Shown: positions 2,590 to 23,054 of the stretch, one piece after another
Numbering within the stretch: position 1 is the first letter of the stretch
Layout of the letters: the number at the start of each line of letters is the position of its first letter
Virus record (IMG/VR): IMGVR_UViG_3300046003_008487
Span: 1 to 32,538 of that record
Direction: 5' to 3' (one strand)
DNA from: a virus
DNA: 32,538 bases
Notes under the pieces: generated by a model
What the model was told of the DNA's origin: nothing
Seen by the model: only the letters and a program-made list of their open reading frames with translations
The model's database searches: none
Made by a program: the position numbers and the translations under genes

Positions 2590-2600
2590 ATTATACACTA
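2590..2600 (-). promoter_or_regulatory. TAGTGTATAAT box upstream of RNR
   Basis: This is the same 11-mer as at 539-549, placed 10 nt before the RNR ATG. It overlaps the TAG stop of gmd (2598-2600), so RNR can be expressed separately from the glycan operon. A TTGACA lies further upstream, but 22 nt from the TATAAT, which is too far for a normal sigma-70 promoter. Confidence 0.6.
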
Positions 2601-3653
2601 TTTTAGAAAATTATCTATGTCAAAGCGTACCATTTTTTCTACCAGTTTGTCAAACGAAATTTTTGGTTCCCATCCTAATTCTTTTCTGGCTGGATTTGAA
2701 TCACCCCACAACAAATCAACTTCAGCGGGTCTATAAAATTTTGGATTTATTTTTACTAAACAAGATGATTCAACTTGTTTATCTTCTACGTATCTATCAT
2801 TAATATAATATTTTTCTTCAATACCTTCTCCATGCCAATAGCCTTCTATATGAGCGAAATTAAAAGCTTTTTCAATAAATTCTCGTATTGAATGAGTTTC
2901 ATTGCTTGATAAAACATAATCTTTTGGTTGTTTTTGATTCAGCATTTTCCAAACACCATCAATAAAATCTTCGCTGTCACTCCAATCTCGTTTTGAGTCT
3001 AAATTTCCAAGATTAATTGGTTCAAATATTTGTTTGTTTTTGATGGCATTATGAATTCTAGCAACGCCTTTGCTAATTTTTCTAGTTACAAATTCTTCTC
3101 CTCGTTTGGTTCCTTCATGATTAAATAAAATACCATGCACAGCATATAATTTATAAGAATCACGATATACTTTAACAACATGTCTCGCAGAAGCTTTAGA
3201 TGCTCCGTATGGGCTTCTCGGTCTTAATGGATGATTTATGTCTTGAGGAGAATAAGCAACATCTCCAAATTCTTCACTGGAGCCAGCGGAGTAAAATCTG
3301 CATTCTGGTTTAAATCTTCTTATTGCTTCTAGGCATCTAACTACGCCGGTTGCATTAACATCGAATGTTTGTAATGGTATATCCCAACTACAACCAACAA
3401 AAGACTGAGCGCCAAAATTTATAAAAAAATCTGGTTGAATTTCTCTTACCAAATTATCTATACTAACAGAATCTGTTAAATCTCCATAAACAAATTCAAA
3501 TCTTGAATTTTTTTCAAAGCTTTTACAGTTTATATAATTAGGATTAGCGCTCCTGCGCATCATGCCAAATATCTTTGCATTCGTATTCTGAAGTAAATAT
3601 TCAGCCATGTTTGCGCCGTCTTGGCCTAAAATACCTGTTATTATAATTTTCAT
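2598..3653 (-). CDS. gmd: GDP-mannose 4,6-dehydratase
   Basis: This 351-residue extended SDR enzyme converts GDP-D-mannose to GDP-4-keto-6-deoxymannose, the precursor of fucose, rhamnose and perosamine. The N-terminal Rossmann motif is GILGQDG (7-13). The active site reads SSEEFG (125-130), with Ser in place of the catalytic Thr and Glu127, and YGASK (149-153) gives Tyr149 and Lys153. FNHEGTKRGEEFVTRKI is the family's substrate-binding block. The length is normal for Gmd. The start codon overlaps the stop of the GDPD-like gene in an ATGA. No fucose synthase, Rmd or aminotransferase for the next step is seen here, so the host or another part of the genome must supply it. Confidence 0.95.
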   Translation of the reverse strand: MKIIITGILGQDGANMAEYLLQNTNAKIFGMMRRSANPNYINCKSFEKNSRFEFVYGDLTDSVSIDNLVREIQPDFFINFGAQSFVGCSWDIPLQTFDVNATGVVRCLEAIRRFKPECRFYSAGSSEEFGDVAYSPQDINHPLRPRSPYGASKASARHVVKVYRDSYKLYAVHGILFNHEGTKRGEEFVTRKISKGVARIHNAIKNKQIFEPINLGNLDSKRDWSDSEDFIDGVWKMLNQKQPKDYVLSSNETHSIREFIEKAFNFAHIEGYWHGEGIEEKYYINDRYVEDKQVESSCLVKINPKFYRPAEVDLLWGDSNPARKELGWEPKISFDKLVEKMVRFDIDNFLK

Positions 3654-4102
3654 TGTTGTTTATATTTTTTTATTTCATCGCTGCAAATTCCATAACAATC
3701 GTTGATATTTCCATTGTATCCCAGTTCCGGTAAAACGCAAATGCTATTTGGGTATAGATATTTATTGGGATAAGTCCAAATATATTTTTTGCTGGTTAAA
3801 ACCCAATCTTCGTTCGTATGCCAAAATACATTGCATTTTTTATTTTTTAAAAGTTTAAAAAACGCATCTCCATTTTTTGCGTGCAACCATAATTCTTTTG
3901 TCATTAAAAAATCAAATTTAATTTCGTTTTGGGGTTTATCATGTCCGAGATACCATTTTTCATTGATATTCCAAACGTCTATTTCTACATCATATTTCAA
4001 ATTCAAAGCTTGTTGTATATAGCTAATTGAGTTTTCTAATTTTTTATTTCTTCCGTTTATGTTACCTCTATGAGAAATCAATTTTTTTTTATTTTTGTAC
4101 AT
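3650..4102 (-). CDS. Short GDPD/PLC-like TIM-barrel protein
   Basis: This 150-residue protein has the beginning of a glycerophosphodiester phosphodiesterase-type barrel: SHRGN (10-14), E40-x-D42 in VEIDVW, and GHD (53-55), followed by LWLHAKN. These match the catalytic His, the metal-binding Glu/Asp and the second His of the family. At 150 residues it is much shorter than a full GDPD (about 240), so it is either a compact family known from capsule loci or a truncated copy. It may trim or transfer a glycerophosphate-like group on a glycan; that is inference. It starts inside the tail of the broken methyltransferase and ends in an ATGA overlap with gmd. Confidence 0.65.
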   Translation of the reverse strand: MYKNKKKLISHRGNINGRNKKLENSISYIQQALNLKYDVEIDVWNINEKWYLGHDKPQNEIKFDFLMTKELWLHAKNGDAFFKLLKNKKCNVFWHTNEDWVLTSKKYIWTYPNKYLYPNSICVLPELGYNGNINDCYGICSDEIKKYKQQ

Positions 4103-4648
4103 ATATTATGACTTCATTTGCGAGATTCATTTTTTTTCTATTGTCTATAACTATTGGTTCTTTTTTAAAAACTTTATTTATTTTTTTTTTAGTATATTAA
4201 TATTTTCGGTTGAATCTACATCTTCTATTATCATTAGCCCTTGTTCATTTAGTTTTTTATAATAATATTCTACAAATCAAATTTGATGTTCTATTTTATG
4301 CGATCCATCGTCGATTATTATATCAAACTTTTCATTTTCATTTATGTTTCTTTTATCGTATGCATCGTAGAATAAATATTTAACTTTTTGTGTTTTATAT
4401 TTTTGTTTTACGTTGTTAGATATGTCTACTCCTGTTATGTTTGCGTTTTTAAAATATAAGCTCCATAGTAACAATGAAGCTCCTGATGCAAAGCCTATTT
4501 CTAATAAGGAAATATTTTTATCTTTTAGTGGTTTCAATTTTTCTTCGTAGAATTCAGAAATATAAGAATGGCAATATTCTTTATCAGTTCCTTCGGAAAA
4601 ATGAAAATTACTTAATTTATATTGATCTATTATTTCTATTAATTTCAT
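4089..4648 (-). pseudogene. Class I SAM methyltransferase broken by TGA and a homopolymer frameshift
   Basis: The intact part (123 residues, 4277-4648) has SAM motif I LLEIGFASGAS, GVDIS, and FDIIIDDGSH. It stops at TGA (4277-4279), where a Trp-like position (Q-I-stop-F-V-E) would be expected. In the same frame the sequence continues as a convincing methyltransferase C-terminus (YYYKKLNEQGLMIIEDV), then hits TAA right after a run of ten A (minus strand; T10 at 4181-4190). Adding one base to that run restores a frame ending IDNRKKMNLANEVIIYVQK and then TAA at 4089-4091, which overlaps the next gene's start as the operon's other junctions do. So two lesions separate it from a 186-residue enzyme. 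Sequencing error could explain the homopolymer, less easily the TGA. Confidence 0.85.
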
Positions 4649-4974
4649 ATGTCGTTGTATTTATCATTTATTGCTGATGGTGTTTTAATTACTATTAATT
4701 CGCAATCTTCTAAGAAACAAGGTTTCACGGATTCATTTTTTTCAATAATAAAAATTTTACCTGCTTCCAATAATATATTATTAATTGTCATTGTGCCTCG
4801 GATTAAAAAATTAATTTCTGTGCTGATTTTATGATGATGTTTAGGCCAATCTTCCCCTTTGTGGTGAAGTTTATACGAAACCTCAAATAAGGTTGTTTTA
4901 AACACAGTTGGTTCAAAATTTCCAACAAACCAACCGCCTTTATCCATGAATGGTTTTGAGTCAAATATTTTCAT
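4645..4974 (-). CDS. Small cupin-fold protein
   Basis: This 109-residue single-domain protein reads as a cupin: a Trp-Pro-Lys-His-His-His segment, Glu after ISTE, a G-T-M-T turn, and the second motif around LLEAGKIFII. Such cupins in sugar loci act as epimerases or isomerases, or bind a sugar-phosphate or metal; the substrate cannot be read from the sequence. Its start lies 14 nt inside the nucleotidyltransferase gene, and its TGA overlaps the start of the methyltransferase (ATGA). Being translationally coupled to the nucleotidyltransferase and the RuBisCO-like protein, it is a good candidate for the same pathway. Confidence 0.75.
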   Translation of the reverse strand: MKIFDSKPFMDKGGWFVGNFEPTVFKTTLFEVSYKLHHKGEDWPKHHHKISTEINFLIRGTMTINNILLEAGKIFIIEKNESVKPCFLEDCELIVIKTPSAINDKYNDI

Positions 4975-5686
4975 CGATTTTTTTGAATTTTTCTAAATCT
5001 TGTGGAATGCCAATTGGAAAGTGTTCATTGAAAAAATACTGAACAACCTTCATTCCTTTGTTTATCATATAATTGTAACTAGGACCGACATAAAATTCAT
5101 TATTTACTCTGTCATTCCGAGAAAACATTTCATCACAGGAATCAAAGAAGTAAGATCCTTTTGACCAAAAGTGAAGTCCGTTAGTAGCATAATTGCTAAT
5201 AACTTCTTTTTCTCTAACCTGTGTTATCAATCCTTCATCATTTAATCTGACATAACTATTTTTTGGACTATTTGAATAAAATGTTCCAATTACGCCTTCG
5301 GCCAAGTTCTTTTCAGAAAAAGAAACTAACTTTTCCAAGTTCAAGTCAAAAATTATCTGATCACAATTGGTAATAATGAGTGGTTCACTAGTATTAATAT
5401 ACGGTTTTGCAAAATAGGAAGTTCGTGCGGGTCCATCAGTGAATTCGTCAATAATAATATATTTTACTTTTGACGTATCACAATGGTCTTGGATGTTGTC
5501 GATAATATTAAATTTCTGTTGATGTTCTTTGAGAACACACACAAAAAACTGTACATCACGATGATAAAAGTTGTTGATAACTCTCGCCAACATAGGCGAT
5601 CCATTAACATCCAACAAAGGTTTTGGAATGGTAGTATTAAACCTAGTACCAAGACCCGCAGCCGGTATAACAGCATTCAATGTCAT
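4961..5686 (-). CDS. Sugar-phosphate nucleotidyltransferase
   Basis: This 241-residue GT-A-like nucleotidyltransferase activates a phosphorylated sugar or alcohol with an NTP. It shows AVIPAAGLGTRF at residues 5-16, the catalytic-type Lys in PKPLLDVNGSPM, and the metal-binding Asp in NCDQIIFD. I chose the start at 5686 (MTLNAV), not the upstream ATG at 5701, because it overlaps the stop of the RuBisCO-like gene in an ATGA, the rule throughout this operon. It resembles the C-terminal half of the HAD fusion at 6924-8285, so the two may act in one pathway or be paralogs. Nucleotide and sugar are unknown. Confidence 0.88.
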   Translation of the reverse strand: MTLNAVIPAAGLGTRFNTTIPKPLLDVNGSPMLARVINNFYHRDVQFFVCVLKEHQQKFNIIDNIQDHCDTSKVKYIIIDEFTDGPARTSYFAKPYINTSEPLIITNCDQIIFDLNLEKLVSFSEKNLAEGVIGTFYSNSPKNSYVRLNDEGLITQVREKEVISNYATNGLHFWSKGSYFFDSCDEMFSRNDRVNNEFYVGPSYNYMINKGMKVVQYFFNEHFPIGIPQDLEKFKKIDENI

Positions 5687-6894
5687 TGCTTTAATCCCCA
5701 TGTTTCAATTGCTGTATAATATTCCTCACCATATATTTTTTGAATCGACTGAACCATGGCTTTTACTCCAGCTTTACTTCCCATGGGATGTGACGAAATC
5801 GATCCACCGACATTTGCCATCCAGTTAGAATGTCCTAGTTCAGATTTGATATATTCAATCAACCCCGGATGCATTCCACAACTCAAAGCTGGCACTGAAT
5901 TCAATTCAACCAATTTCTTGATCGTTTTCTTTAAACTATCAGAGTCGCTATTCAAATATCCACCAATCATACCAACATGAAGCGTTGAACACCCACATCG
6001 ACTAGCAATCTCAAAGAGAACAGACTCATCAATAGAATAATCGTGTTGAGAATTTGTCCACAACCTATCTCCACTCTTTTGGTAGTGAAGATATAAATTC
6101 AATCGTAGATCCTTGACCAACTTATACGCACCATATCCACTATGAATATTGATATGAAGTCCGTTTATGCCCAGATTATGGACTTTACGAACACGGTCTT
6201 CCAAATACAAGTGATCACATGTTATAGACGGAGCATATACCATCTTGATATTATTGGTTCTGAGATAGTCACTGATCTTCTCAAGTCGTTTTTCCATCGA
6301 ACAAAACGATTGATTAGAAAGAATTTCATCTTCTTTGATAAAATTACATCCATTATCTGCGTAAATTTTAACTACTTCGACGTAATCATTTACATTCAAG
6401 CCGATTTTAGGTTTAATTATACCGCCAAACAACGGAGTTTTATCGTCAAGTCCACACAACTGACGCATCTCATTCAAGCCACGATTTGGTCCGTTAAATA
6501 TCGATGTGAACTGATTTGAAAATTGAATACTGGTTATTCTACATTTTTGAATCGTGTCAATATCCACCTGTCCACCCATAATAGTGGTTAAAAAGTGGGT
6601 AATTCCATCTTCATAATAATTAAAGTTGGAATCTGGATAGTAAATGTCAACTAATCCTTCGTTTTTAGAAAAATCAACGTTATCAACAACAACTTTTGCA
6701 CAAAACGTTTCAAATAATTCGTTACTTTCAAATTCGGAGCGTTTTTCTGGATTTCCAACACTTTGTCCTAATGCAATAGCTTTCGCTGCATCAAACAAAT
6801 CTGTTTTCGATTTAATGTAATAAGTAACAATATTGCCAGAACATAAATTATCACGGTTTGTAAAAATAAGTTCTTTTATTGATTTTGTTATCAT
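5683..6894 (-). CDS. RuBisCO-like protein (form IV type)
   Basis: This 403-residue protein aligns by eye along the whole large-subunit fold. Conserved (spinach number in brackets): GGIIKPKIGL with K161 [175] and K163 [177]; FIKEDE with K187 [201], D189 [203] and E190 [204], the carbamate/metal set; H270 [294]; H306 [327]; S338 [379]; G363-G364 [403-404]. Changed: loop-6 K334 is Y313, R295 is Tyr, and N123 is Gly. Carboxylase activity is therefore very unlikely, but Mg-dependent enolisation or isomerisation of a ketose-phosphate-like substrate stays possible. It lies between a HAD-nucleotidyltransferase fusion (29 nt away) and a second nucleotidyltransferase (ATGA overlap). Its GC content is clearly higher than the glycosyltransferase genes to the right, suggesting separate acquisition. 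I know of no characterised phage homolog; that is a memory statement. Confidence 0.9.
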   Translation of the reverse strand: MITKSIKELIFTNRDNLCSGNIVTYYIKSKTDLFDAAKAIALGQSVGNPEKRSEFESNELFETFCAKVVVDNVDFSKNEGLVDIYYPDSNFNYYEDGITHFLTTIMGGQVDIDTIQKCRITSIQFSNQFTSIFNGPNRGLNEMRQLCGLDDKTPLFGGIIKPKIGLNVNDYVEVVKIYADNGCNFIKEDEILSNQSFCSMEKRLEKISDYLRTNNIKMVYAPSITCDHLYLEDRVRKVHNLGINGLHINIHSGYGAYKLVKDLRLNLYLHYQKSGDRLWTNSQHDYSIDESVLFEIASRCGCSTLHVGMIGGYLNSDSDSLKKTIKKLVELNSVPALSCGMHPGLIEYIKSELGHSNWMANVGGSISSHPMGSKAGVKAMVQSIQKIYGEEYYTAIETWGLKQ

Positions 6895-6923: not shown

Positions 6924-8285
6924 TTATTTAGAGTGGTTTTTCAAAAAAAATTCTAGATCTTCAGGAGTTCCAAGTCCCCACATTTTTTCAATATTATATG
7001 TTCTGATTTTTTTTGAATCTTGTATAGCTTCGTTAAATACGGGGCATATATAAAATTCATTATTAACTCTGATGTTTTTATTTATCATTTGTTGAGCATA
7101 TTTAACATAATCGCTTCCTTTGTTCCAATAATAAACACCTACCGTTGCTATATCAGAAATGGGTTTTTTCTCAGCAACTTCAGTAACATAACCAAATTCA
7201 TTAATTTTAGCAAAAGACCATTTTGGGTGTGTAGATTTAAAACATAAAATGCCAGCATCTACGTCTTGTTCAATCATTTTGTACATGAACTCATTGCTAT
7301 CCCATTCAACAAATTGATCTGAGTTTGCCATTAGTAATGATTGATCATTATCAATAAATTTTTTTGCTAAAAGAGTCGTGCATGCTGCACCTTCGGTAAT
7401 TCCATCAACTTCAACTATTTTGCAATTTGGAGTTATTAAATTGAGAAGAGTGTCTAAATTGTATTTTTCTCGATGTTCTTTTTGAACTACGAAAATAAAA
7501 TTAGCTTCAACATTTAAATTTTCAATTACGGTTTGAATCATGGGCTTCCCTTTGACATCAATTAAAGGTTTTGGAAAAGTGTATCCGGCTTGTTGAAATC
7601 TACTTCCTGCTCCGGCCATTGGAATAAGAACGTTTAGTTTTCCTCCTTGCCATTTTGGAATATTCATAGTATTGATTATAAGTTTAGAATTAATTTTTTC
7701 TTCAGTTAGATCTTCTGGATTATTTACTCTTAATACATTGGCTCTGCTTCTGCTTGCAGATAATAAACCAGTGGGTGAATCTTCAATTATAAGAGTTTGT
7801 TCTGGCAATACTTCTATCATACTCATCGCTTTCCAATATATTTCAGGATGGGGTTTTGCATTCTTTACGTCTTCATTTGATAAGATAAGGTCTAGATATT
7901 CAATAAGTCCAGTCTTGGAAAGCATCACTAGTACTGATCTGCGAATAGAGTTCGAACAGCACGCTAGTTTAAAACCTTTATTTCTAAGATTGATAAATAA
8001 TTTGATTAATTTTTCGTTTTTGGATAATTGAGAAATAGCTTGTATTGTTAATCTTTGTTTTTCTTCCCATATCTGTTGATAGTATTTTTTTTCTAAATTT
8101 TTATATTTTGTTAAAAGCTCTAACTTTTGATTGGTTTTTAATCCATCGTATATTGATAAATGCTCTGCGATGGAAATTTCATACTTTGAATCTATTGAGC
8201 GTAAAGATTGGTTCAATGTGTCATAATGAATTTTTTTTGCATCAACCAAAACCCCATCAAGATCGAAAATAATTAGTTTAATCAT
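6924..8285 (-). CDS. HAD phosphatase-nucleotidyltransferase fusion
   Basis: This is a 453-residue two-domain protein. Residues 1-200 are a HAD hydrolase of the phosphoglucomutase/phosphoglycolate type: DLDGV (8-12), Ser111 in CSNS, Lys144 in AKPHPE, and IEDSPTG (168-173). Residues 215-453 are a nucleotidyltransferase: IPMAGAGSRF (221-230), PKPLIDVKGKPM, and an NSDQF metal-site motif. Such fusions can move or remove a phosphate and then form a nucleotide-sugar. The start at 8285 (MIKLIIFDLDG) is 2 nt after the stop of the TylF-like gene; a longer frame from 8333 would overlap that gene. It lies directly upstream of the RuBisCO-like gene. Confidence 0.9.
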   Translation of the reverse strand: MIKLIIFDLDGVLVDAKKIHYDTLNQSLRSIDSKYEISIAEHLSIYDGLKTNQKLELLTKYKNLEKKYYQQIWEEKQRLTIQAISQLSKNEKLIKLFINLRNKGFKLACCSNSIRRSVLVMLSKTGLIEYLDLILSNEDVKNAKPHPEIYWKAMSMIEVLPEQTLIIEDSPTGLLSASRSRANVLRVNNPEDLTEEKINSKLIINTMNIPKWQGGKLNVLIPMAGAGSRFQQAGYTFPKPLIDVKGKPMIQTVIENLNVEANFIFVVQKEHREKYNLDTLLNLITPNCKIVEVDGITEGAACTTLLAKKFIDNDQSLLMANSDQFVEWDSNEFMYKMIEQDVDAGILCFKSTHPKWSFAKINEFGYVTEVAEKKPISDIATVGVYYWNKGSDYVKYAQQMINKNIRVNNEFYICPVFNEAIQDSKKIRTYNIEKMWGLGTPEDLEFFLKNHSK

Positions 8286-8287
8286 TT

Positions 8288-8995
8288 TTAGTATTTTTTT
8301 ATATATGCTGTCGGACATGCATAATTTAAACATTTAATTTCTATATTTTTTTCTTCAATAAATTTATCAACTCCTTTTGATTCACTCCATTTGTGATACC
8401 CATACTCATCAAAAATAATTAATCCGCCTTTTGTTATATTGCTCCATAGATTGTTTAAAGCATTGTATGTAGGTGCTTCTAAGTCAACATCCATATATAA
8501 AAGAGATATTTTAAAACCGGGATTTTTTTCTGAAAATTCTTTGGTCGTTATTGAAATATCACCCTCTATTAATTCAAAATCAGAATTTAAAAATCCGTTT
8601 TGTATTATTTGTTTTGCAAAATCATTTTTAAATGATTTTTCATGTTTAAAAGATCTTTCAGAAAAAAGAATTTGCATCGATTCTTTTTCTTTTTTGCTTG
8701 CAATTGAATTTATTAATTCTTCGCTATTAAAAAAATCGAATCCTATTACTTTTTTTGAGGAATTAGAATTATATAGATTTTTTAATTTTAAAAATGTATA
8801 TATGCCGGTTCCTTTAAAAACACCGCATTCAACTATATCGCCGGGTATATCTTTAACTTCATGGTATAATAAAACTCTAGAAATTAATTTATTAAAAACT
8901 CTTTTATCTTCGCTTAGTATAAAATTATTGAAGTTGTCATATATAGATTGGGATACTTTAGATACTTCTAAATTATCAATTTTTAATTTTTCCAT
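8288..8995 (-). CDS. TylF/macrocin-type O-methyltransferase
   Basis: This 235-residue SAM-dependent methyltransferase belongs to the TylF family. Landmarks are GDIVECGVFKGTG, then VIGFDFF, the metal-type Asp in YMDVDLEAPTYNAL, and GGLIIFDEYG followed by W-x-S and a VDKFI stretch. Family members O-methylate sugar residues, so a late tailoring step on the glycan or nucleotide-sugar is likely. It is 9 nt downstream of the gene at 9005-9754 and 2 nt upstream of the HAD fusion. Very AT-rich. Confidence 0.85.
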   Translation of the reverse strand: MEKLKIDNLEVSKVSQSIYDNFNNFILSEDKRVFNKLISRVLLYHEVKDIPGDIVECGVFKGTGIYTFLKLKNLYNSNSSKKVIGFDFFNSEELINSIASKKEKESMQILFSERSFKHEKSFKNDFAKQIIQNGFLNSDFELIEGDISITTKEFSEKNPGFKISLLYMDVDLEAPTYNALNNLWSNITKGGLIIFDEYGYHKWSESKGVDKFIEEKNIEIKCLNYACPTAYIKKY

Positions 8996-9004
8996 AATCG
9001 TATT

Positions 9005-9754
9005 TTAAAATTTTAGAAACTTTAAACAAAATTTATTATTTTCTAATAGAAAATATTTGATTAGTAGGTGTTGATTTAACATGTGTATTTTATTTATTTT
9101 TTCAGTGCTTTGCGGTTTTTGATTAAATATTTCTTGAGAAAACCTATTTTCTGAATTGCTGTATGGAAATCCAGATGTGATGCATTTTTGATAATCGCTA
9201 TCTTCTTTTAAATAAATTAATAGTTTATCATAAATTCTTGATATAAAATCTATATTTTCGTTATTAGAAATAAAAAACCAATCTGCTAGTCCTGCATTAA
9301 GTTGATTCCAATACATTGAATATAAATAATTATTATCTATTTTATTTAAGTCAGGAATTTCAAAATTTTCTGTGCTTATGTATCCAAGATCTGGCCTGCA
9401 TAATACAATTATATCGTATTTTACATTATTATTTTTAGCGAATTGATTTTTGAGTTCACAAACTTTTTTTCTTGAATAAAAAAAACTAAAAACTTTTTTT
9501 GCGGTTGTTTTATCTAATATATGATAAATATCATCTATTTCATTTGAAAAATTTTCTTGCCTTTCAATTTGATATATTTTTGGATTGAAAATATTAACAA
9601 TCTCAGATTCGATTTCTTTTGAAAAAGAATATATGAACACATCAGCATTATATTGTTTTATTTTATTAACTAGATATGAAAATTTATTCTCATACGCTGT
9701 AGAGTAAGTTGTGCTTGGCTTGAACAATCCAGATATACAAAACGCTACTTTCAT
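9005..9754 (-). CDS. Putative glycosyltransferase-like polysaccharide protein
   Basis: This 249-residue soluble protein begins MKVAFCISGLFKPS. A central YDIIVLCRPDLGY resembles the R-x-D block seen in several poorly described capsule and LPS proteins. The order (KVAFCISG start, N-x-K stretch, R-P-D, then ADWFFISNNEN) fits GT-A-like transferases related to DUF7796/WavE-type families. I cannot name the donor or acceptor. It overlaps the FkbM gene by ATGA. By-eye count of one line (9301-9360) gives 11 of 60 G+C. Confidence 0.55.
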   Translation of the reverse strand: MKVAFCISGLFKPSTTYSTAYENKFSYLVNKIKQYNADVFIYSFSKEIESEIVNIFNPKIYQIERQENFSNEIDDIYHILDKTTAKKVFSFFYSRKKVCELKNQFAKNNNVKYDIIVLCRPDLGYISTENFEIPDLNKIDNNYLYSMYWNQLNAGLADWFFISNNENIDFISRIYDKLLIYLKEDSDYQKCITSGFPYSNSENRFSQEIFNQKPQSTEKINKIHMLNQHLLIKYFLLENNKFCLKFLKF

Positions 9755-10473
9755 TTTATCAAAAACTTTTTATTAATGAATACAATGTCCTCTTCGATTC
9801 CAAGATTATTAGTTAAACAACATTCGACAAAAAAACCATTTTCTTCCATAAATTGAATTAGCTCATTTTTTACTGTAGAGTTCTGATATATTTTATCTAA
9901 GCCAACTTCAGAATGAATAGCTTTTATATTTTGTAGGTGTTCGCCAAAACTTTTTAAAACTTCCATCTCAGCTCCTTGAACGTCCATCCATATTAAATCA
10001 ATTTTATCAATTGAATTATTTTTCAAAAAAGAATCTCCTCTTATGCATTCTACTTGAATTTCTTGTTGTACATAAGATTTACCATAATAATGATTATTAT
10101 TTGCTTTATATAAAGAACTTGCGCCTATGTTACCATTAACAACTTTATGAAACTTGATATAACCATCAGTTGGTCCTATGGCTTTTTCATAAAAATTTAT
10201 GTTTTTTCTATCTTTTATATTATTTTTGCACCATTGTGCTGTTTCTGGAACAGGCTCGAAACAATGAATTTTAGAATTAGGAAACCAATCTGATAATTCT
10301 AATGTTTGACAAGCGTCTCTTGAACCAATATCTAAAACATGATCAATATTTTCTAAATCTATTTTATCTTCGATTTTTTTTATAAAATCAAACGTTAAGC
10401 TTAAAACCGTTCCTTCCCAGTTGTTATATTTTCTTTCTGAATTTGAAGAAAATGCGTTTTTATTGTATTTCAT
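9751..10473 (-). CDS. FkbM-family methyltransferase
   Basis: This 240-residue protein has VLDIGSRDA (SAM motif I), IHCFEPVPETA (acidic end of strand 2 with the F-E-P signature), and IDLIWMDVQGAEMEVLKSF, which is the hallmark of FkbM-type enzymes (D-V-x-G-x-E). FkbM proteins O-methylate sugars or related hydroxyl groups. It is one of at least three intact methyltransferases in this operon, pointing to a heavily methylated glycan. It starts 1 nt after the stop of the preceding WavE-like gene. Confidence 0.9.
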   Translation of the reverse strand: MKYNKNAFSSNSERKYNNWEGTVLSLTFDFIKKIEDKIDLENIDHVLDIGSRDACQTLELSDWFPNSKIHCFEPVPETAQWCKNNIKDRKNINFYEKAIGPTDGYIKFHKVVNGNIGASSLYKANNNHYYGKSYVQQEIQVECIRGDSFLKNNSIDKIDLIWMDVQGAEMEVLKSFGEHLQNIKAIHSEVGLDKIYQNSTVKNELIQFMEENGFFVECCLTNNLGIEEDIVFINKKFLIK

Positions 10474-10474
10474 T

Positions 10475-11071
10475 TTATTTAATATAATCTAATGCTAGTT
10501 TTTCAGATTTATATGATGATAAAAATTTTTTATATTTTATCCAGTAAATATCATTTTCATCATTTATTTTATTTAAGAAAAAATTAAACTGTTCATTATT
10601 TAATTCCATTTCGAAAAAATTTTCAAGTATCATTTGTTCTGAAAATAAAAAATTTGTTTTTTTATTTTTGCTCCATAGCTTTATCATCAAATTTATATCT
10701 CCAGCCATTAGATAATCGCAAATATACCCACCATTATAATTATGCCAAAAAAAGAAGTTTATTTCATGCGTAAAAATATCAATTAGTTTATTAATATCTT
10801 TTACTATATAATCGCTTCTTATTTTTAAAGTTTTTTGAAATCCTAATTCTTTAGCTTTTAATAATCCATTTATAGTAGTTTCTTGTTGATAAAATAAATT
10901 ACCTGTTCCAGGATTTTGTGGTTTTTTATTAAAAATTACATTTTCTTTATTTATGTATTTATGCTCTTCACCTTCCCATGTTGAAAAAATATAGTTTTCA
11001 TCCTTCATAGATTTCTTAATTTCTTCCACATTTACAGAGGGGCCTTGAATTATAATGCACCATTCATTCAT
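10475..11071 (-). CDS. WavE-like LPS biosynthesis protein (copy 1)
   Basis: This 198-residue protein has the WavE pattern: WCIIIQGPS at the start, IFSTWEGE, NLFYQQETTINGL, and a KIRSDYIV block. It is related to the protein at 12986-13651, with which it shares each of these blocks. WavE is a putative glycosyltransferase of LPS core and capsule loci. The start codon directly follows the stop of the upstream gene's neighbour region with no gap. It is shorter than its paralog at the C-terminus. Confidence 0.75.
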   Translation of the reverse strand: MNEWCIIIQGPSVNVEEIKKSMKDENYIFSTWEGEEHKYINKENVIFNKKPQNPGTGNLFYQQETTINGLLKAKELGFQKTLKIRSDYIVKDINKLIDIFTHEINFFFWHNYNGGYICDYLMAGDINLMIKLWSKNKKTNFLFSEQMILENFFEMELNNEQFNFFLNKINDENDIYWIKYKKFLSSYKSEKLALDYIK

Positions 11072-11758
11072 TTATATTCTACCTCTTTTATTATTTAATA
11101 TTTTTTTTATTTTATTTAATTCATTTTCGTATTCCGTGAAATTCCATTTTCCTTTTATTGTCGCTGATGCAATATACGGCCACACATTTGAGTCGTAATG
11201 TCCCCCTCTTTTGGGTTCATCATTGAAATGACATAATCCAGATATTTTTACTTTTTCATTAATTATAGAAGAGCGTTCTTCAAGTTGCCATATATTTAGT
11301 TTACCTGATGAGTCTAAAAATTTTTGTAACGATTCTCTTTTCCATATTGAAGGTTGAATACAAAAAACATATTCGGATTTTTCTGAAATATTAAAAAGAG
11401 TTTTTCTCTCACTTGATTGAGAAAAAATGCAGTTTCCAGGCGCTCTGGTTAATCTGATAAAATCTTTTTTTGAATTAATTAAAATATTTTGATATTCATT
11501 TAAAAGATTTATATTTGGTTTGTCATATATAAGCATATCTTCATGATGAAAAAAAATAATGTTTTCTTTTATTTGATTTATGCAATTTAAAAGTTTTTCA
11601 GAATAACTTAATTCATTATTATAGAGAATTGTTTTTTCATTTTTATATTTTTTATCTGCACAGATTAAAATTTCTGATCCGTAAAATTGATTCCACTGAT
11701 CTAAAAAAATCTCTAACACATCGAAGTATTCGCTATGTGAATAAACTATGTTAATCAT
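11072..11758 (-). CDS. Putative GT-A-like glycosyltransferase
   Basis: This 228-residue protein starts MINIVYSHSEYFDVL. The longer frame from 11782 is less likely because the ATG at 11758 overlaps the previous stop (ATGA). A central YSEKLLNCINQIKENIIFF is followed by HHEDMLIY, where H-E-D may replace the D-x-D metal site, and CIQPSIWKRESL later. This order is familiar from unnamed capsule-locus glycosyltransferases. Donor and linkage unknown. Very low GC (12 of 60 in the line 11101-11160). Confidence 0.6.
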   Translation of the reverse strand: MINIVYSHSEYFDVLEIFLDQWNQFYGSEILICADKKYKNEKTILYNNELSYSEKLLNCINQIKENIIFFHHEDMLIYDKPNINLLNEYQNILINSKKDFIRLTRAPGNCIFSQSSERKTLFNISEKSEYVFCIQPSIWKRESLQKFLDSSGKLNIWQLEERSSIINEKVKISGLCHFNDEPKRGGHYDSNVWPYIASATIKGKWNFTEYENELNKIKKILNNKRGRI

Positions 11759-12303
11759 TGTATTACTTTTATTATTTTCCAACTTTTGTAACCTAAATGA
11801 GGATCTGAATTTGGATCATCTTCTTTTCTTGTTTCTATAACTTCATATTTGATAATTGATCCGAAATCATTAATTAACGCATTTTCAAACTCTTCATAAT
11901 GACACCAATCGTCTATTAATATTACTGTGCCGCTTTTGACGTTTTGTGTTATTTTTGAATACCAAAATTTTCGTAAAGATCCATTTGGACCGTCGATTAA
12001 TATAAAATCATATTTTTTATTTCCAATGTTTAAATTTTCGATTTCGTTTTCGTTATATATAAAACAATGAATTCCAATATGATTGACATGAAAATTTTGA
12101 TTCGATTCAAAAGCTTTGTATTCGACATTCCACTTTTTACTTAAAAGATTAAAAAGTTTTATTGAACTATCTCCGCATCCAAACTCTAAAACATTTAAAT
12201 TATCTTGTTCGGGTAAAAGAGACACTGCATTTTTCATTTCTTCGGCCATATAAGACCATCCGCCTTTAAATACTGAAAAATTCATATTTATATTTTGTTC
12301 CAT
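11755..12303 (-). CDS. Class I SAM-dependent methyltransferase
   Basis: This 182-residue protein begins at the ATG at 12303, which has an AGAAAG 9 nt upstream; ATGs at 12309 and 12285 are alternatives, and a frame up to 12372 runs deep into the preceding gene. Motif I is VLEFGCGDSSIKLF, followed by YKAFESNQNF (acidic strand 2 end), YDFILIDGPNG and VILIDDW. The LIDGP motif is common in small-molecule or sugar methyltransferases. Acceptor unknown; probably a sugar of the glycan. Confidence 0.75.
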   Translation of the reverse strand: MEQNINMNFSVFKGGWSYMAEEMKNAVSLLPEQDNLNVLEFGCGDSSIKLFNLLSKKWNVEYKAFESNQNFHVNHIGIHCFIYNENEIENLNIGNKKYDFILIDGPNGSLRKFWYSKITQNVKSGTVILIDDWCHYEEFENALINDFGSIIKYEVIETRKEDDPNSDPHLGYKSWKIIKVIQ

Positions 12304-12986
12304 ATACATTTTCTTTCTGAAAAATATCCTTTCATATAATAATCTCTTTTGAAACCTTCTGACTGTAGCCAAGGATTTAATGTTGATCCTATATCTAAAT
12401 ATATATTTTTTTTATTTATTTCATATAACTGATGAGCTAATAAATTGCCGAAAGGTCCAGCGCAAAAAAGAAATAATTTATTTGTTAAATTTTGTTGTTT
12501 TATCTGCTCAATTAAAGAATAATTATTTACCCAAGCGCTAAATGAAACAGGATAAAATTTTTCTATTTTAAAAGGAAGATTTTCTATCTTTGATCTTTCA
12601 TTTGCTACTAAATGAACATCGTAATTTCGATAAGATTTAAGAAATGTTTCTTTATAGATAGGATAATTTGCATTAACAAAAATATTTGCAAAAGTCATAT
12701 TTTCTTCATTTTGATCACTGAATTCTCTCATTTTTTGAGCACGATCACCGTTGCAGCATGGGCAACAGGTGCCTATATAATAATTAATATCTTTATATTT
12801 TATAGATTCAATTAATTTTTGTTTATAAAAAATAGGCGTATTTTTTGAAAATTCAAATTCTCTATTGTTTAAGTAATCATTTGAAATAATAGCCCATTCA
12901 CCATCAGCGTATTTGGAAAAACAAAATGGATTTCCTTTTTTAAATTTATCAAATATTTTGTATATTTCTTCAGTAAAATCTTTCAT
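12288..12986 (-). CDS. Putative GT-D/DUF1792-like glycosyltransferase
   Basis: This 232-residue protein has FSKYADGEWAII near residue 24, similar to the R/K-Y-G-D-G-E start of GT-D-like families, and a C-terminal YLDIGSTLNPWL (D-I-G-S-x-L). FLFCAGPFGNLLAHQLYE in between fits the second Rossmann-like half. Several cysteines (CCPCC near residue 75) could bind a metal, which is unusual for the family. The assignment rests on these motifs only. It shares one base with the stop of the WavE-like gene (TAATG). Confidence 0.55.
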   Translation of the reverse strand: MKDFTEEIYKIFDKFKKGNPFCFSKYADGEWAIISNDYLNNREFEFSKNTPIFYKQKLIESIKYKDINYYIGTCCPCCNGDRAQKMREFSDQNEENMTFANIFVNANYPIYKETFLKSYRNYDVHLVANERSKIENLPFKIEKFYPVSFSAWVNNYSLIEQIKQQNLTNKLFLFCAGPFGNLLAHQLYEINKKNIYLDIGSTLNPWLQSEGFKRDYYMKGYFSERKCIWNKI

Positions 12987-13651
12987 TATTGAAAATATTG
13001 TGAATAAGATTTATTTATGTATTTTTTTTCTAAATATTCTTGTTTGTTAAAATGTACGCATTGGGGGTCATATTTAATATCATTTTTTAACCATTTAAAA
13101 TAGTTATCTTCGGTCGCATTTTCTATTAAATATTCAACTTTTGAATTATCTGGAAATAACTCTGTGTATCTTTTTGTTAGTGTTATTTCTGGGTGAATAA
13201 ATTCATAACAATTTTCAAAAGACCATAACTCAATTAATTGATTTATTTCTCCAAAATTAATAAAATCTGTTAAATAACCAGGGCATCTTGGATAAAATGT
13301 ATTATTTGTTTGCCAGTGTAAAAATGCAAATTTGTCTGGTTTTTCATGTAAAAATTTTAATGTTTTTTGAGCATTTGTCATTATAAAATCGCTTCTTATT
13401 TTTAATGCATGCGAAAAGCCAATTTGTCTAGCTACATGTAAGCCAGCAAGCGTGGACATTTTTTGATAATTTAAATTGCAAAAACCCGGTAGTTTTGGTT
13501 TTTTTTGAAAAATAACTAAGTCATTATTATTATAAAAAAAATCCTCTCCAGCCCAAGTGCTAAAAATAACTGTTTCATTAATATTTTTTAAAGAATTTTT
13601 AACTTTTTCTATATCGAAGCTTGGTCCTTGATAAATAATACAGAGTTTCAT
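12986..13651 (-). CDS. WavE-like LPS biosynthesis protein (copy 2)
   Basis: This 221-residue WavE-type protein shows LCIIYQGPSFD at the start, VIFSTWAGED, NLNYQKMSTLAGL and KIRSDFIM, then a long C-terminal part ending near YLEKKYINKSY. The blocks parallel those of the gene at 10475-11071, so the operon has two diverged WavE-like transferases, presumably for different linkages. Its start overlaps the stop of the gene at 13648-14592. Confidence 0.8.
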   Translation of the reverse strand: MKLCIIYQGPSFDIEKVKNSLKNINETVIFSTWAGEDFFYNNNDLVIFQKKPKLPGFCNLNYQKMSTLAGLHVARQIGFSHALKIRSDFIMTNAQKTLKFLHEKPDKFAFLHWQTNNTFYPRCPGYLTDFINFGEINQLIELWSFENCYEFIHPEITLTKRYTELFPDNSKVEYLIENATEDNYFKWLKNDIKYDPQCVHFNKQEYLEKKYINKSYSQYFQ

Positions 13652-14592
13652 GATTTAATATATTTTTTAAAATCGTTATTTTTATCATACCACCATGAGC
13701 TAGCTTTAGCTTTGCTTCTATCTGTATCTAAATAAAGAGAATTCCATTTGGGTCCTTTGGGATCTGTTACTACTATATCTTGAGGTTGAGTTGATAATTT
13801 TCTAATTTTATCTCCATCTTTTATAAGCTCTTTCCATTGTAAAATTCTTTCTTCAAGAGTGCCTGAAGGAGGAGTTCCTCCGCAGAAAATACCAGAAAGA
13901 CCGACATGCATTGATCTTGTTTGATCAGGTTTTAAAGAAAACAAATTAAAATATTCCATTATTCTTTCAATTGCTCCATCATGATGTGTGTGTTCCCACG
14001 GTTTTATTCTTGAATTAAAAAAAAACATATTATTAAATTGAACAACATCTTCAAAGTATAATGGATGAGATAAAAATGGAACCATATATTTTTTTATTGA
14101 TTCCACGGAAACGCAAGATGGTGAAGTGCATTGATAATCACCAATTAATATTTCAGCATCACCATTTAACTCGGTTTCTGGTCTTCTTTTATGTGCTGCA
14201 CAAAAAATTCTACAATATTTTTTTAAATAATTATGATAAATATAATCATTAAATCTTATGTAATCTTCTGTTGGTAAAATATCTTCTTCTCCAATAATTA
14301 CATATTCTGAAGCTTCTTGAGCAGAAATTATATAGCTGGATAAAATATTATGAAAACCAGTTAGTGAGCATTTTGGGTGTTTAGGTTTTACTATTAATTT
14401 TAAATCAACACTTGGGTATTTATTTGCATAATGTTTTATCACTTCATTTTCTTCTTTGTCGTATCCAATTTCAGTATGTATTCTTATTTTATAATTACAA
14501 ATCGTTGCATCTTTATAGATTTGTTCTAGATAAATATATAAAAGATCAGGTTTATTATAAGCTGTTATGGCTATAATATTTTTATCATTCAT
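13648..14592 (-). CDS. GT-A glycosyltransferase, GnT-I/POMGnT-like fold
   Basis: This 314-residue protein starts IIAITAYNKPDLLYIYLEQI, a strand and helix typical of GT-A enzymes. YVIIGEEDILPTEDYI carries an E-E-D in the place of the metal-binding D-x-D. The C-terminal part has W-E-H-T-H-H-D and SMHVGLSGIFCGG. This layout resembles N-acetylglucosaminyltransferase I-like and related bacterial families. A four-base overlap couples it to the epimerase gene upstream. Confidence 0.7.
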   Translation of the reverse strand: MNDKNIIAITAYNKPDLLYIYLEQIYKDATICNYKIRIHTEIGYDKEENEVIKHYANKYPSVDLKLIVKPKHPKCSLTGFHNILSSYIISAQEASEYVIIGEEDILPTEDYIRFNDYIYHNYLKKYCRIFCAAHKRRPETELNGDAEILIGDYQCTSPSCVSVESIKKYMVPFLSHPLYFEDVVQFNNMFFFNSRIKPWEHTHHDGAIERIMEYFNLFSLKPDQTRSMHVGLSGIFCGGTPPSGTLEERILQWKELIKDGDKIRKLSTQPQDIVVTDPKGPKWNSLYLDTDRSKAKASSWWYDKNNDFKKYIKS

Positions 14593-15566
14593 AAAAGTTT
14601 AACGATTTTTTGAGAGCTTAATCCGTCTCCATATGGACAGTTTTTTGAAATTTCATATTGATCATGTATTTTTTTAAATATTTTTTTTAAAAATTTTGGT
14701 TTTTTGCAAAGTTTTATGTGTGCTGTTTTTATTCCTTCCGGTCTTTCGGTTGTTTTTCGACAAACAATAACTTTTTTATTTAAGAAGCAAGCTTCTTCTT
14801 GAATTCCTCCAGAATCGGTTATAACAAGTAAGCAATCTTTTAAATAATCTATTAATTCATTATGTTGCAGTGATTTGCAAATTTTTATATTTTTTGTTTT
14901 TTTTGATGCTTCAATTATTTTAGGATTTGGATGGACAGGAAATAAGAATTGAATTTCTTTGTTTTTTGCGGCGATCTGATCTATTTCTTTCAACCATTCA
15001 TGAATTATATTTATGTTTTCATTTCTGTGAAGAGTTATCAATATTTGTTTTTTATAAGAAGTTTTAATATTCTTTATATTATCTAAAGATGTATTGCCAA
15101 CAACATAAGATTGTCCTTTTGTTAATTCCTTTTTTAAATTTTTTTGAGATATTATGGTTGGGCAAAAATTGATATCTGATATTCTAGATACAATTTGACG
15201 ATATCCTTCTTCTGGATATGGATTTTCGAGATCGTAAGTTCTCAAGCCAGCTTCAATATAAATTATTTTCTTTTTTAAATGATAAGCAACCAAAGCTGTT
15301 GCTGCAACTGTTGCGGTATCTCCTTGGATAATGATTGAATCAAATTCATGAATTATTTTTTCAGCTTTTAAAAAAATTTGTTCAAAAATGGAATTCAATC
15401 TGTTTTCGCAAGAATTTTCTATTTCTATACAATAATCATATTTTTCGAAATTTATTATGTCTGTGTGTTGTTTTATAAATAAACTTTTAATCTTTTTATT
15501 TTCGGCAAGTATCGGTTTTATTTTCAAATATTCAGGTCTTGTTCCGTAAACAGCCAGTATTTTCAT
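14589..15566 (-). CDS. wecB: UDP-N-acetylglucosamine 2-epimerase (non-hydrolysing type)
   Basis: This 325-residue GT-B-fold epimerase interconverts UDP-GlcNAc and UDP-ManNAc. Catalytic landmarks are all present: IIQGDTATV (D83), YIEAGLRT (E105), NPYPEEGYRQ (E119/E120), TLHRNEN (H180) and TDSGGIQEEA, followed by TERPEG. The length is a little under the usual 360-380 residues, mostly from shorter loops. No UDP-ManNAc dehydrogenase (WecC) is in the window, so ManNAc itself may be used, or a host enzyme continues. Confidence 0.92.
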   Translation of the reverse strand: MKILAVYGTRPEYLKIKPILAENKKIKSLFIKQHTDIINFEKYDYCIEIENSCENRLNSIFEQIFLKAEKIIHEFDSIIIQGDTATVAATALVAYHLKKKIIYIEAGLRTYDLENPYPEEGYRQIVSRISDINFCPTIISQKNLKKELTKGQSYVVGNTSLDNIKNIKTSYKKQILITLHRNENINIIHEWLKEIDQIAAKNKEIQFLFPVHPNPKIIEASKKTKNIKICKSLQHNELIDYLKDCLLVITDSGGIQEEACFLNKKVIVCRKTTERPEGIKTAHIKLCKKPKFLKKIFKKIHDQYEISKNCPYGDGLSSQKIVKLL

Positions 15567-16303
15567 AAATCGTTTAAATATTTAAACCCTTTGTTTTTAT
15601 AATGAACAAGATTTCTTCCAAAATGGCTTGCGTGATGGTTGCAAGAGATAGCTACATTGTCAACGCCAAAGCCGTAAGCTGTTTCTTCTTGACTTCCCCA
15701 CATTTCTTTATCGTTTTTTGGGTGTGGTGGAACGTATGTTTTTAGGCCAAGATATTTTTGAATTGAATAAGAAAAATGAACGTCTTCTCCGGAAAGATAA
15801 TGTATTGGCATTTCTCCTTCTCGCCAATATGCGCCAAGCCATTCACGTTTAAAAAACCAACTGTGGCCAACAATATCGACTTCTTCTGTTTTTTCATTTG
15901 GATTTGCCCATCCGTGTCGAACGTAACTAGAATAATTTAAATCATTAAAGATTACGCCTATTGTTCCTAATAAGCCGTTTTTTTCTTTTATTGTTTCATA
16001 ACAATTTTCCAGCCATTTGTTTCCAGGTATAGTATCGTCGTCAAAAACACAAACGTATTCCGTCCTGCAATTCAAAGCGTATGCAAAACGAGCCCATACG
16101 CCAAAATTGCCATTCGATATAGAAGTCGTACATTGATTAGCAATATCTAAATCAAGCGGAATAAACGGGGGTTTATCGCCTTGGTTTTGCCAAATAAAAA
16201 TATTTTTTGGTTTTAACGTTTGATTTGTTAAAGCTTCAAATTGTTTTTTTAAAGTGTGCGGTCTTTTAAAACAATTAAGTACAATAGAAATATCTTGACT
16301 CAT
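15563..16303 (-). CDS. Family 2 glycosyltransferase
   Basis: This 246-residue soluble enzyme begins ISIVLNCFKRPHTLKKQFEAL, followed by NGNFGVWARFAYAL and YVCVFDDDTIPGNKWL with the D-D-D metal site. The C-terminal YLSGEDVHFSYSIQ has the E-D motif of the acceptor-side catalytic base. There is no membrane segment. It overlaps both neighbours by four bases. Confidence 0.88.
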   Translation of the reverse strand: MSQDISIVLNCFKRPHTLKKQFEALTNQTLKPKNIFIWQNQGDKPPFIPLDLDIANQCTTSISNGNFGVWARFAYALNCRTEYVCVFDDDTIPGNKWLENCYETIKEKNGLLGTIGVIFNDLNYSSYVRHGWANPNEKTEEVDIVGHSWFFKREWLGAYWREGEMPIHYLSGEDVHFSYSIQKYLGLKTYVPPHPKNDKEMWGSQEETAYGFGVDNVAISCNHHASHFGRNLVHYKNKGFKYLNDL

Positions 16304-17142
16304 AATGCAGATTTAATTAAATTAAATATTTCAACTGGTTTGGATTTTATATATTCTATCATTTTATTTGATTCATAATCAAAGAAACTTTCGTGAACTA
16401 CGGCGGTATAATCAGTGGTCACGACAGACAAACCCATCAATCTTGCCTCTATACACACTCTAGAAAGAGTCTCTGGGCTTCTTGGAAAGAAGACATAGGT
16501 AGAGTATCTAGAAAGATTCTTAAGAAATGTATGATGATCTGTCTTTGGAAGCAATTCATATTTTAAATGAACCTTTTTACAGAAATCGATAGAAACGTCT
16601 CTTCCTTTAATTCCATAGTGGTCTTCGCCTAAAATTGCTGCTTTTCCATTTTTGGGTGTTCGAGAAAGGGCTTCAATTAAATCCATTGTTTTCTCAGACC
16701 ATAAATTTCCTGAAAAATTAACAATATTTGAAAGCTCTAAGTTTTTATCAAAAATTGATTTTTGAAGGCCGCTTTGTGTTAATACAAATTTAGCATTTTT
16801 ATATAGTTCAAAATGTATTATATCAGATTTAGGGGCTAGAAAATTTTCGTAATAACAAGGATTTCTTGTTTGCAAAAATTTATAATCATGTTCAGTTATT
16901 ATATATTTTTTTGGATATAGAAATTGTTCGGCCTCTTCAGAGATAAAATAAAAATTTGACAGTATAAAAAGATCTATCTCTGTAAATTCTTTAAACTTGA
17001 TATTAAATTCAAATGTTGTAATAAATTCGCATTTATGTTCTCTGTTTAAAACTTTAATAAGTTCGTTATTATTTGATTCTGCTCCTCCATTTTGCAGTTC
17101 AGAATATTTTTCATCTGATATTAATAATATTTTCTTGCTCAT
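16300..17142 (-). CDS. GT4-like glycosyltransferase
   Basis: This 280-residue GT-B protein starts at 17142 (MSKKILLISDEKYSEL), one base after the previous stop; an upstream ATG at 17169 would overlap that gene. NGGAESNNNEL is the N-terminal glycine loop, and YVFFPRSPETLSRVCIEA is the donor-binding E-x7-E region of GT4 enzymes. It is shorter than usual (about 350-400), so it may be a minimal version. Confidence 0.82.
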   Translation of the reverse strand: MSKKILLISDEKYSELQNGGAESNNNELIKVLNREHKCEFITTFEFNIKFKEFTEIDLFILSNFYFISEEAEQFLYPKKYIITEHDYKFLQTRNPCYYENFLAPKSDIIHFELYKNAKFVLTQSGLQKSIFDKNLELSNIVNFSGNLWSEKTMDLIEALSRTPKNGKAAILGEDHYGIKGRDVSIDFCKKVHLKYELLPKTDHHTFLKNLSRYSTYVFFPRSPETLSRVCIEARLMGLSVVTTDYTAVVHESFFDYESNKMIEYIKSKPVEIFNLIKSAL

Positions 17143-17143
17143 T

Positions 17144-20444: not shown

Positions 20445-20732
20445 ATGTATACTAAAACACTTAGATATTTAAAAGAAACAACACCAGACTCTCTTATTCT
20501 TAAATTTGAGCTAGCTGGAAAAACAAAAGAAAATGTTAAACTAACGTATATAGATGGGGTGCTTACCATAAAAGTTGATGAAAAAAATTTGTACCCCATC
20601 GATGTATATGACATATACGGATGGTATGAAGAATACGACGCTGAAAATCTTAAAGCTTCAATGAAAGAAGGATTGCTTGCAGTAACAATACCAAAGAAGA
20701 AACAAATAGAAAACCAAATACCAATAGAATAA
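20445..20732 (+). CDS. Small heat-shock protein, Hsp20/alpha-crystallin type
   Basis: This 95-residue protein is almost only the alpha-crystallin domain. LKFELAGKTKENVKLTYIDG corresponds to the first strands and DAENLKASMKEGLLAVTIPK to the end, with the conserved A-x-x-x-x-G-L-L motif. N-terminal arm and C-terminal I-x-I extension are minimal (IPIE at the end). Phage Hsp20s are thought to hold virion or host proteins in solution. It has its own promoter candidate and terminator. Confidence 0.85.
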   Translation: MYTKTLRYLKETTPDSLILKFELAGKTKENVKLTYIDGVLTIKVDEKNLYPIDVYDIYGWYEEYDAENLKASMKEGLLAVTIPKKKQIENQIPIE

Positions 20733-23044: not shown

Positions 23045-23054
23045 ATTTACACTT
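23044..23054 (-). promoter_or_regulatory. AAGTGTAAATA box upstream of the 620-residue structural gene
   Basis: A variant of the phage box, overlapping the TAA stop of the FtsZ-like gene. Here 25 nt lie between box and ATG, filled by the hairpin, unlike the 6-10 nt seen elsewhere. It therefore counts as weaker evidence. Confidence 0.4.

Follow-up and report, generated by a model that had tools for sequence, protein, structure and literature searches.

A virus-borne clade of RuBisCO-like proteins in a four-gene cassette, with a probable role in making precursors of surface glycans

The known functions of RuBisCO relatives cover CO2 fixation, nucleotide breakdown, methionine salvage and the degradation of sugar acids. 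We analyzed the RuBisCO-like protein (RLP) encoded in IMG/VR virus record IMGVR_UViG_3300046003_008487 (positions 1 to 32,538, the whole of which is called the window), a 32.5-kb record with phage tail genes and a central tail fibre J-like match (E 2e-107), and compared it with other members of the superfamily. The closest described systems are form III RuBisCO from Thermococcus kodakarensis and Pyrococcus horikoshii, the 2,3-diketo-5-methylthiopentyl-1-phosphate enolase MtnW (form IV-YkrW), the 3-oxo-isoapionate-4-phosphate decarboxylase OiaX, whose substrate is a branched sugar-acid phosphate, and the RLPs of Chlorobium tepidum (photo type) and R. palustris (rlp2). Judged from sequence, the window RLP and its relatives form a separate, previously undescribed clade, which probably makes a precursor for surface glycans, with a role in activated-sugar synthesis.

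Sequences of the RuBisCO family outside all known forms have been described before. The 2007 Global Ocean Sampling (GOS) survey reported 65 of them from marine samples, with changes at N123, K177, H327 and other positions, and published these branches without virus or gene context (PMC1821046). Viral rbcL has been presented as a carbon-fixation gene in landfill viruses, where it was placed as "RbcL-like" and noted to occur in IMG/VR as well (PMC12607003), and in mining-soil viruses, where one gene is claimed to be active upon co-expression with rbcS and Great Salt Lake viruses are cited (PMC12615777). In a marine RuBisCO study from 2025, form-IV-only genome clusters were left out of the metabolic analysis (PMC12168267). 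Like the window gene, the published viral rbcL and "RbcL-like" genes are RuBisCO-family genes on viral contigs, but they are described as carbon fixation with no link to a glycan cassette; these genes, the GOS branches and the form IV-GOS and IV-EnvOnly classes of earlier literature are compared with the present clade by description only. An initial sequence-only reading of the window had known of no described phage example, a statement that, taken literally, is wrong in view of these viral reports; unplaced RuBisCO branches had also been seen in the GOS survey. RuBisCO-like genes in viruses had already been reported, and what is new is the clade's carriers, its cassette and its probable role. 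Our literature search found no paper linking an RLP with nucleotidyltransferase, cupin and phage, nor relevantly with capsule genes.

The gene in question is the following:

5683..6894, minus strand: RLP (RuBisCO-like protein), 403 amino acids, characterized by Pfam, an AlphaFold model, VIA-align, a tree and dN/dS

A complete open reading frame (ORF) of 403 amino acids fills this interval, the plus strand of which is full of stops. Residues 153-386 match PF00016 (RuBisCO_large) with E 9.4e-28 and 97.8 bits (cut-off 30.1), the Pfam model of the N-terminal domain scores slightly below its cut-off, and 98 solved RuBisCO and RLP sequences match at E<=1e-3. The AlphaFold model, calculated from an alignment of 61 family members (pLDDT 94, pTM 0.92), predicts the two-domain RuBisCO large-chain fold with its catalytic TIM barrel. 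RuBisCOs and RLPs rank at the top of a Foldseek search with this model, and VIA-align superimposed it on P. horikoshii RuBisCO with a Z of 42.9 and a root-mean-square deviation of 2.3 over 382 aligned residues, on B. subtilis MtnW (2zvi) with a Z of 42.5 and on the Chlorobium RLP with a Z of 40.8. Against the nearest relative dN/dS is about 0.04 (dS 1.17, dN 0.047), and the window RLP is a real gene under strong purifying selection. Among NCBIfam profiles the best is form III, far under its cut-off; the mtnW-type profiles give 90 and 128 bits (cut-offs 514 and 409) and the OiaX-type profile 92 bits (cut-off 700). RuBisCO homology combined with the loss of RuBisCO active-site residues, seen in the residue table and the tree, places the protein among the RLPs in the broad form IV sense, and its description as a full-length, 403-residue form IV-type RLP agrees with ORF, Pfam, fold, residue table and tree alike.

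For the active site, 63 family members were aligned with reference enzymes, and positions are given here in RuBisCO numbering with the RLP residue in parentheses. The carbamate lysine and two Mg2+-binding acids that characterize the superfamily, K201 (K187), D203 (D189) and E204 (E190), are invariant in the 63 members, as are K175 (K161), S379 (S338) and the glycine pair G403/G404 (G363/G364); H292 (H270) and H327 (H306) are nearly invariant, and K177 (K163) and G381 (G340) are also kept. Six residues that mark a CO2-fixing RuBisCO are not retained: loop-6 K334 is replaced by Tyr313 and its partner E60 by Gly43, both invariant in the clade, H294 by Gln272, invariant in the family, R295 by Lys273, a conservative and nearly invariant change, N123 by Gly108 and T65 by Asn48. 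H298 is replaced by Asp276, which varies within the family. The sequence-only reading had correctly picked out K187, D189, E190, K161, S338, G363/G364 and Tyr313, all of them invariant in the family. It was also right that H270 and H306 are present, but H270 aligns with H292 rather than with H294, and the two losses it listed, at R295 and N123, are both replacements, the former a mild one. In RuBisCO enzymology, loss of K334 abolishes carboxylation, and enolisation can survive. Since K334, E60 and H294 have become Tyr, Gly and Gln with the catalytic residues kept, the RLP is predicted to carry out enolisation or isomerisation without CO2 fixation, and the retained metal site, K175 and phosphate-site glycines would suit an enzyme that enolises or isomerises a phosphorylated sugar.

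Form III RuBisCO shares with the RLP the fold (Z 40-43), the KPK motif containing K175 and K177, the carbamate lysine, the metal acids, H327, S379, G381 and G403/G404, but identity is about 23%, all six positions from K334, E60, N123 and T65 to H294 and R295 differ as listed above, and the RLP stands in a glycan context without a PRK or IF-2B-type partner. MtnW has in common with it the fold, the carbamate/metal site and the loss of E60 and K334, whereas the RLP keeps the H292 and K177 positions that MtnW has lost, falls in another clade and is accompanied by no methionine-salvage genes. OiaX likewise has Tyr at K334 and Gly at N123, but OiaX and the apionate-type RLPs belong to catabolic plasmid loci, some with sugar-acid kinases, form a separate clade and differ at the K177, H294 and H298 positions. 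K177 is absent from the compared MtnW, OiaX and apionate-type RLPs. The C. tepidum RLP and rlp2 share the fold (1ykw, 2qyg, Z 40.8) and lie on a separate branch. The references of the maximum-likelihood tree comprised forms I, II and III, MtnW and RLPs of the photo and OiaX/apionate types. In it, 27 of 27 family rows fall on one side of a branch with support 100/100; because long branches meet there, the tree does not fix the placement of the clade among the other forms.

An initial scan for relatives found 16 viral loci with 44-92% identity, and a profile scan extended the family to at least 237 viral contigs of up to 518 kb, 80 of which were retained for analysis. The nearest relatives (L028 and L029, 92% identity, on contigs of 49 and 127 kb) have RLP, nucleotidyltransferase and cupin genes in the order of the window, and the RLP architecture recurs on independent contigs whose lengths range from 49 to 294 kb. 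This matching gene order excludes a contig artefact or a join of phage and host DNA, an outcome against which the sequence-only reading had itself warned. A terminase of one Pfam type is present on 9 of 24 large RLP contigs checked. Neither of two queries found a relative among 50,697 GenBank phage records, predicted viral structures gave matches only to generic TIM barrels, and there is no PHROG family for the RLP; the searches may have excluded records very close to the window.

The family also occurs in 10 loci of bacterial genome contigs, namely single-cell and assembly contigs of SAR11 and other alphaproteobacteria, a Crocinitomicaceae bin, whose RLP contig is short and possibly itself viral, and the cultured Azospirillum oleiclasticum. 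It is rare in cells, with carriers in 2 of 247 SAR11-order genomes and 1 of 398 Pseudomonadota genomes. The SAR11 genes are chromosomal: one copy, on a 232-kb contig, adjoins sugar-dehydratase-like genes and lies a few kb from housekeeping genes, and further copies have a ThyX-like gene on one side and mrp/hflK-like genes on the other (names read from ORFs). With midpoint rooting, which does not imply a direction of transfer, the Azospirillum and SAR11 proteins branch outside most viral members.

The RLP gene is accompanied by three others, which in the window are:

4961..5701, minus strand: NTP, a stand-alone sugar nucleotidyltransferase (PF00483 E 2.7e-10), overlapping the RLP gene by 19 nucleotides
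4645..4974, minus strand: CUP, a small cupin of 109 amino acids with the invariant metal motif HxH(4)E; PHROG_24762 (function unassigned)
3650..4102, minus strand: HRGN, a putative mini GDPD-like phosphodiesterase of 150 amino acids, assigned with VIA-align (model pLDDT 96.6); PHROG_34507 (function unassigned)

Profiles of the four proteins were run over all loci. Among 90 RLP loci, NTP was found in 85, HRGN in 80, the cupin in 64 and all four genes in 57, counts that are minima, given truncated loci and a miscalled Azospirillum locus. In viral loci, partners no more than three genes away lie on the same strand as the RLP gene in 74/74, 62/63 and 61/61 cases, and neighbouring genes overlap, with median junctions of -4 nucleotides for cupin-RLP (52 cases), -4 for RLP-HRGN (31) and -1 for NTP-RLP (23). 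In A. oleiclasticum the order is HRGN-RLP-cupin-NTP (profile E 1e-26, 8e-97, 2e-37 and 1e-45), followed by genes read from ORFs as cysD and cysN/C, for 3'-phosphoadenosine 5'-phosphosulfate synthesis, and a TPR glycosyltransferase. This reordered set in a distant cultured bacterium is the strongest sign that the four genes are one functional unit. SAR11 chromosomes hold partial cassettes. As a separate observation, three SAR11 single cells (L023, L025 and L026) have the order HRGN-NTP-RLP-NTP, flanked by ThyX-like and mrp-like genes (ORF reading).

The nearest solved relatives of NTP are 6-deoxy-D-mannoheptose pathway proteins, and its nearest profiles are of the HddC/AglF/GlmU type; similarity to the IspD and ribitol-5-phosphate cytidylyltransferase profiles is weak. 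The cupin alignment keeps HxH(4)E and has no second-motif His, and its profile weakly reaches mannose-6-phosphate isomerase-like and KdgF cupins. HRGN has no Pfam or NCBIfam match, and Foldseek alone gave weak matches. VIA-align superimposed 142 of its 150 residues on GDPD from T. maritima (1o1z, Z 10.6), and the top 43 rows are nearly all of the GDPD/phospholipase D superfamily. Its invariant residues, H, R, E, D, H and K, we take to be the GDPD active-site set with the third metal Glu replaced by His (roles after GlpQ). On the evidence of the model, HRGN has a miniature GDPD fold, and a phosphodiesterase activity is putative. The HRGN family is also widespread in phage glycan clusters, with at least 593 viral stretches, usually with a nucleotidyltransferase and even where RLP is missing.

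A search starting from HRGN returned mostly loci that lack RLP, 52 of 80 holding HRGN and NTP alone. NTP in the RLP-less loci is usually fused, to an N-terminal HAD domain (about 455 amino acids), to a C-terminal one (about 365) or to RpiB, and the ratio of stand-alone to fused forms for the nearest NTP is 39:1 with RLP and 6:36 without it. Around HRGN, with separate HAD genes included, 57 loci have RLP only, 46 HAD/RpiB only, 5 both and 11 neither (Fisher p 1e-16, the counts pooling loci from different searches). RLP and the HAD/RpiB domains are thus near-exclusive alternatives beside NTP and HRGN. RpiB is a sugar-phosphate isomerase acting on ribose- or galactose-phosphate. In our reading of this exchange, RLP is a different route to the sugar-phosphate that other loci obtain from HAD/RpiB enzymes.

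Several observations weigh against this reading and the glycan-precursor explanation. The sample from the HRGN search taken by itself has just four RLP loci (0/4 vs 36/44, p 0.0025); seven well-supported independent pairs in the HRGN tree, with 4-5 in the opposite and 0-1 in the same direction, do not reach significance; and 5-6 loci carry both RLP and HAD/RpiB. In the window an HAD::NTP fusion stands beside the RLP gene, five genes from HRGN and so outside the counting limit, and the cupin is missing from most SAR11 copies. The alternative partners, moreover, are mostly HAD proteins, phosphatase- or mutase-like and not isomerases, and the replaced step therefore need not match. The glycan-precursor role proposed in the sequence-only reading is upheld as far as context goes, by the cassette in most of the 90 loci, by Azospirillum and by the near-exclusion of HAD/RpiB. 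Fusions of NTP to RpiB were seen in cyanophages and viral contigs (L109, 5817-6974; L108, 3820-4977; L169; L218), and in cyanophages Bellamy and SynMITS9220M01 the cupin adjoins an NTP::RpiB fusion (LacAB_rpiB E 4e-32) annotated "phosphatase".

For the substrate class, reaction type, step order and final glycan of the pathway we infer the following scheme. A phosphorylated sugar would bind at the RuBisCO phosphate sites, formed by Gly340/363/364 and by Lys273, His306 and Ser338, and Mg2+ held by carbamylated Lys187, Asp189 and Glu190 would promote formation of the enediolate. Reprotonation of the enediolate at another position would isomerise or epimerise the substrate instead of carboxylating it. 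The neighbouring nucleotidyltransferase is predicted to activate the product, the cupin and mini-GDPD may take this same intermediate or the phosphodiester product as substrate, and the surrounding glycosyltransferases and methyltransferases would consume the activated sugar. On the 24 large contigs (95-294 kb) no match was found to PRK, RbcS or the IF-2B family (MtnA, ribose-1,5-bisphosphate isomerase), with positive controls that included nine genomes for the IF-2B/MtnA search; virus records may be fragments, which limits such absence tests. Carbon fixation, the archaeal AMP pathway and methionine salvage are therefore not indicated.

We weighed this scheme against four other explanations. 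The gene could encode a divergent viral RuBisCO and serve as an auxiliary metabolic gene that boosts host CO2 fixation; this would agree with a protein that passes the Pfam RuBisCO cut-off and has form III as its best NCBIfam profile, even if far below cut-off, and with the soil-phage viral rbcL1 reported to be active when co-expressed with rbcS (PMC12615777; compared with the clade by description only). The invariant Tyr at K334, Gly at E60 and Gln at H294 make it very improbable, together with the count of 0/24 large contigs with RbcS or PRK, the placement in glycan cassettes rather than by Calvin-Benson-Bassham genes, and cellular carriers that are mostly SAR11, which are heterotrophs. We give scarcely any credence to an MtnW-like methionine-salvage enolase with HAD and cupin standing for MtnX and MtnD. 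The trio of RLP, HAD and cupin does resemble MtnW-MtnX-MtnD, and MtnW is close in structure, but the clade is separate from MtnW in the tree, the mtnW score is far from its cut-off (90 bits against 514), the cupin is without the second-motif His, and HAD and RLP exclude each other rather than co-occur, for which reason the analogy was dropped. The sequence-only reading had named methionine-salvage enolases with mtn genes nearby as the finding that would speak against it; the best matches are not such enolases, and the 24 large contigs hold no MtnA-type gene.

The residues shared with OiaX, Tyr at K334 and Gly at N123, lend some credit to a decarboxylase of the OiaX kind, one that would shorten a phosphorylated keto-acid to an unusual pentose or tetrose of the glycan, and known RLP chemistry covers the decarboxylation of 3-oxo-isoapionate-4-phosphate (from the family name). 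We nevertheless regard it as unlikely, given the separate clade, the K177 kept here and lost in OiaX, the Gln in place of the H294 that is His in OiaX, and, unlike apionate-type loci, no neighbouring four-carbon-acid sugar kinase. More doubtful still is a route in which the RLP would produce a polyol- or ketose-phosphate whose activation, in the style of CDP-ribitol or CDP-glycerol, uses a non-anomeric phosphate and leads to a teichoic-acid-like phosphodiester glycan trimmed or proofread by the mini-GDPD. The GDPD fold and active-site set of HRGN and the weak IspD and ribitol-5-phosphate cytidylyltransferase similarity of NTP would suit that route, but the best NTP relatives are sugar-1-phosphate enzymes, and HRGN is also found with HAD::NTP where there is no RLP. 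Synthesis of an activated-sugar precursor for surface glycans is the reading we prefer. On balance we think it likely that the RuBisCO fold has been recruited to anabolic nucleotide-sugar or nucleotide-polyol synthesis, with a new clade and a new reaction, in a mainly phage-spread, swappable four-gene cassette that SAR11 and Azospirillum also have; some of the rbcL counted in virome studies as viral carbon fixation would then be glycan biosynthesis.

If true, surface-glycan sugar synthesis would add a new function to one of the best-studied folds, in a clade present on hundreds of phage contigs. Genes of the clade pass the Pfam RuBisCO cut-off, and standard annotation may therefore label them RuBisCO large chain, so that the carbon fixation driven by viruses is overcounted. 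An experimental handle is also available, since one carrier, A. oleiclasticum, is cultured and the probable user of the product is identified by the cassette itself.

The genes flanking the cassette are glycan genes, as the sequence-only reading had held and as Pfam matches and ORFs confirm:

6924..8333, minus strand: HAD::nucleotidyltransferase fusion, a second NTP-family copy (HAD_2 E 3.5e-28, residues 21-202; NTP_transferase E 7.9e-12, residues 239-452)
4277..4648 (ORF; whole gene 4103-4648), minus strand: methyltransferase, broken by an in-frame stop and then a frameshift; the blastx match to an intact 189-amino-acid relative in L150 runs on beyond the stop and later switches to a different frame
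2598..3653, minus strand: GDP-mannose 4,6-dehydratase-like epimerase/dehydratase (PF16363 E 1e-105), overlapping HRGN by 4 nucleotides
8288..17938, minus strand: remaining glycan region, with methyltransferases TylF (E 2.6e-12) and FkbM (E 1e-19), a UDP-GlcNAc 2-epimerase-like gene (Epimerase_2 E 4e-63) and glycosyltransferase-like genes

HAD::NTP fusions of the kind listed first go with HRGN in RLP-less loci. Adjoining the glycan region, a ribonucleotide reductase whose domains are those of the B12-dependent (class II) type is encoded at 600-2579 (minus strand). A tubulin/FtsZ-family GTPase at 23047-24261 (minus strand; PF00091 E 2e-11, with a weak PhuZ PHROG match) is found here in a genome with lambda-J-like tail genes. 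The tail-fibre-like protein encoded at 24782-28000 (minus strand) contains a long, collagen-like tract of GSSGTSG repeats, and two overlapping ORFs of about 205 amino acids at 31242-31859 and 31856-32470 (minus strand), with similar starts and a common YGRLRL motif, look like duplicated tail-assembly proteins. On the plus strand, 20445-20732 encodes a small heat-shock protein, HSP20 (E 6e-9).

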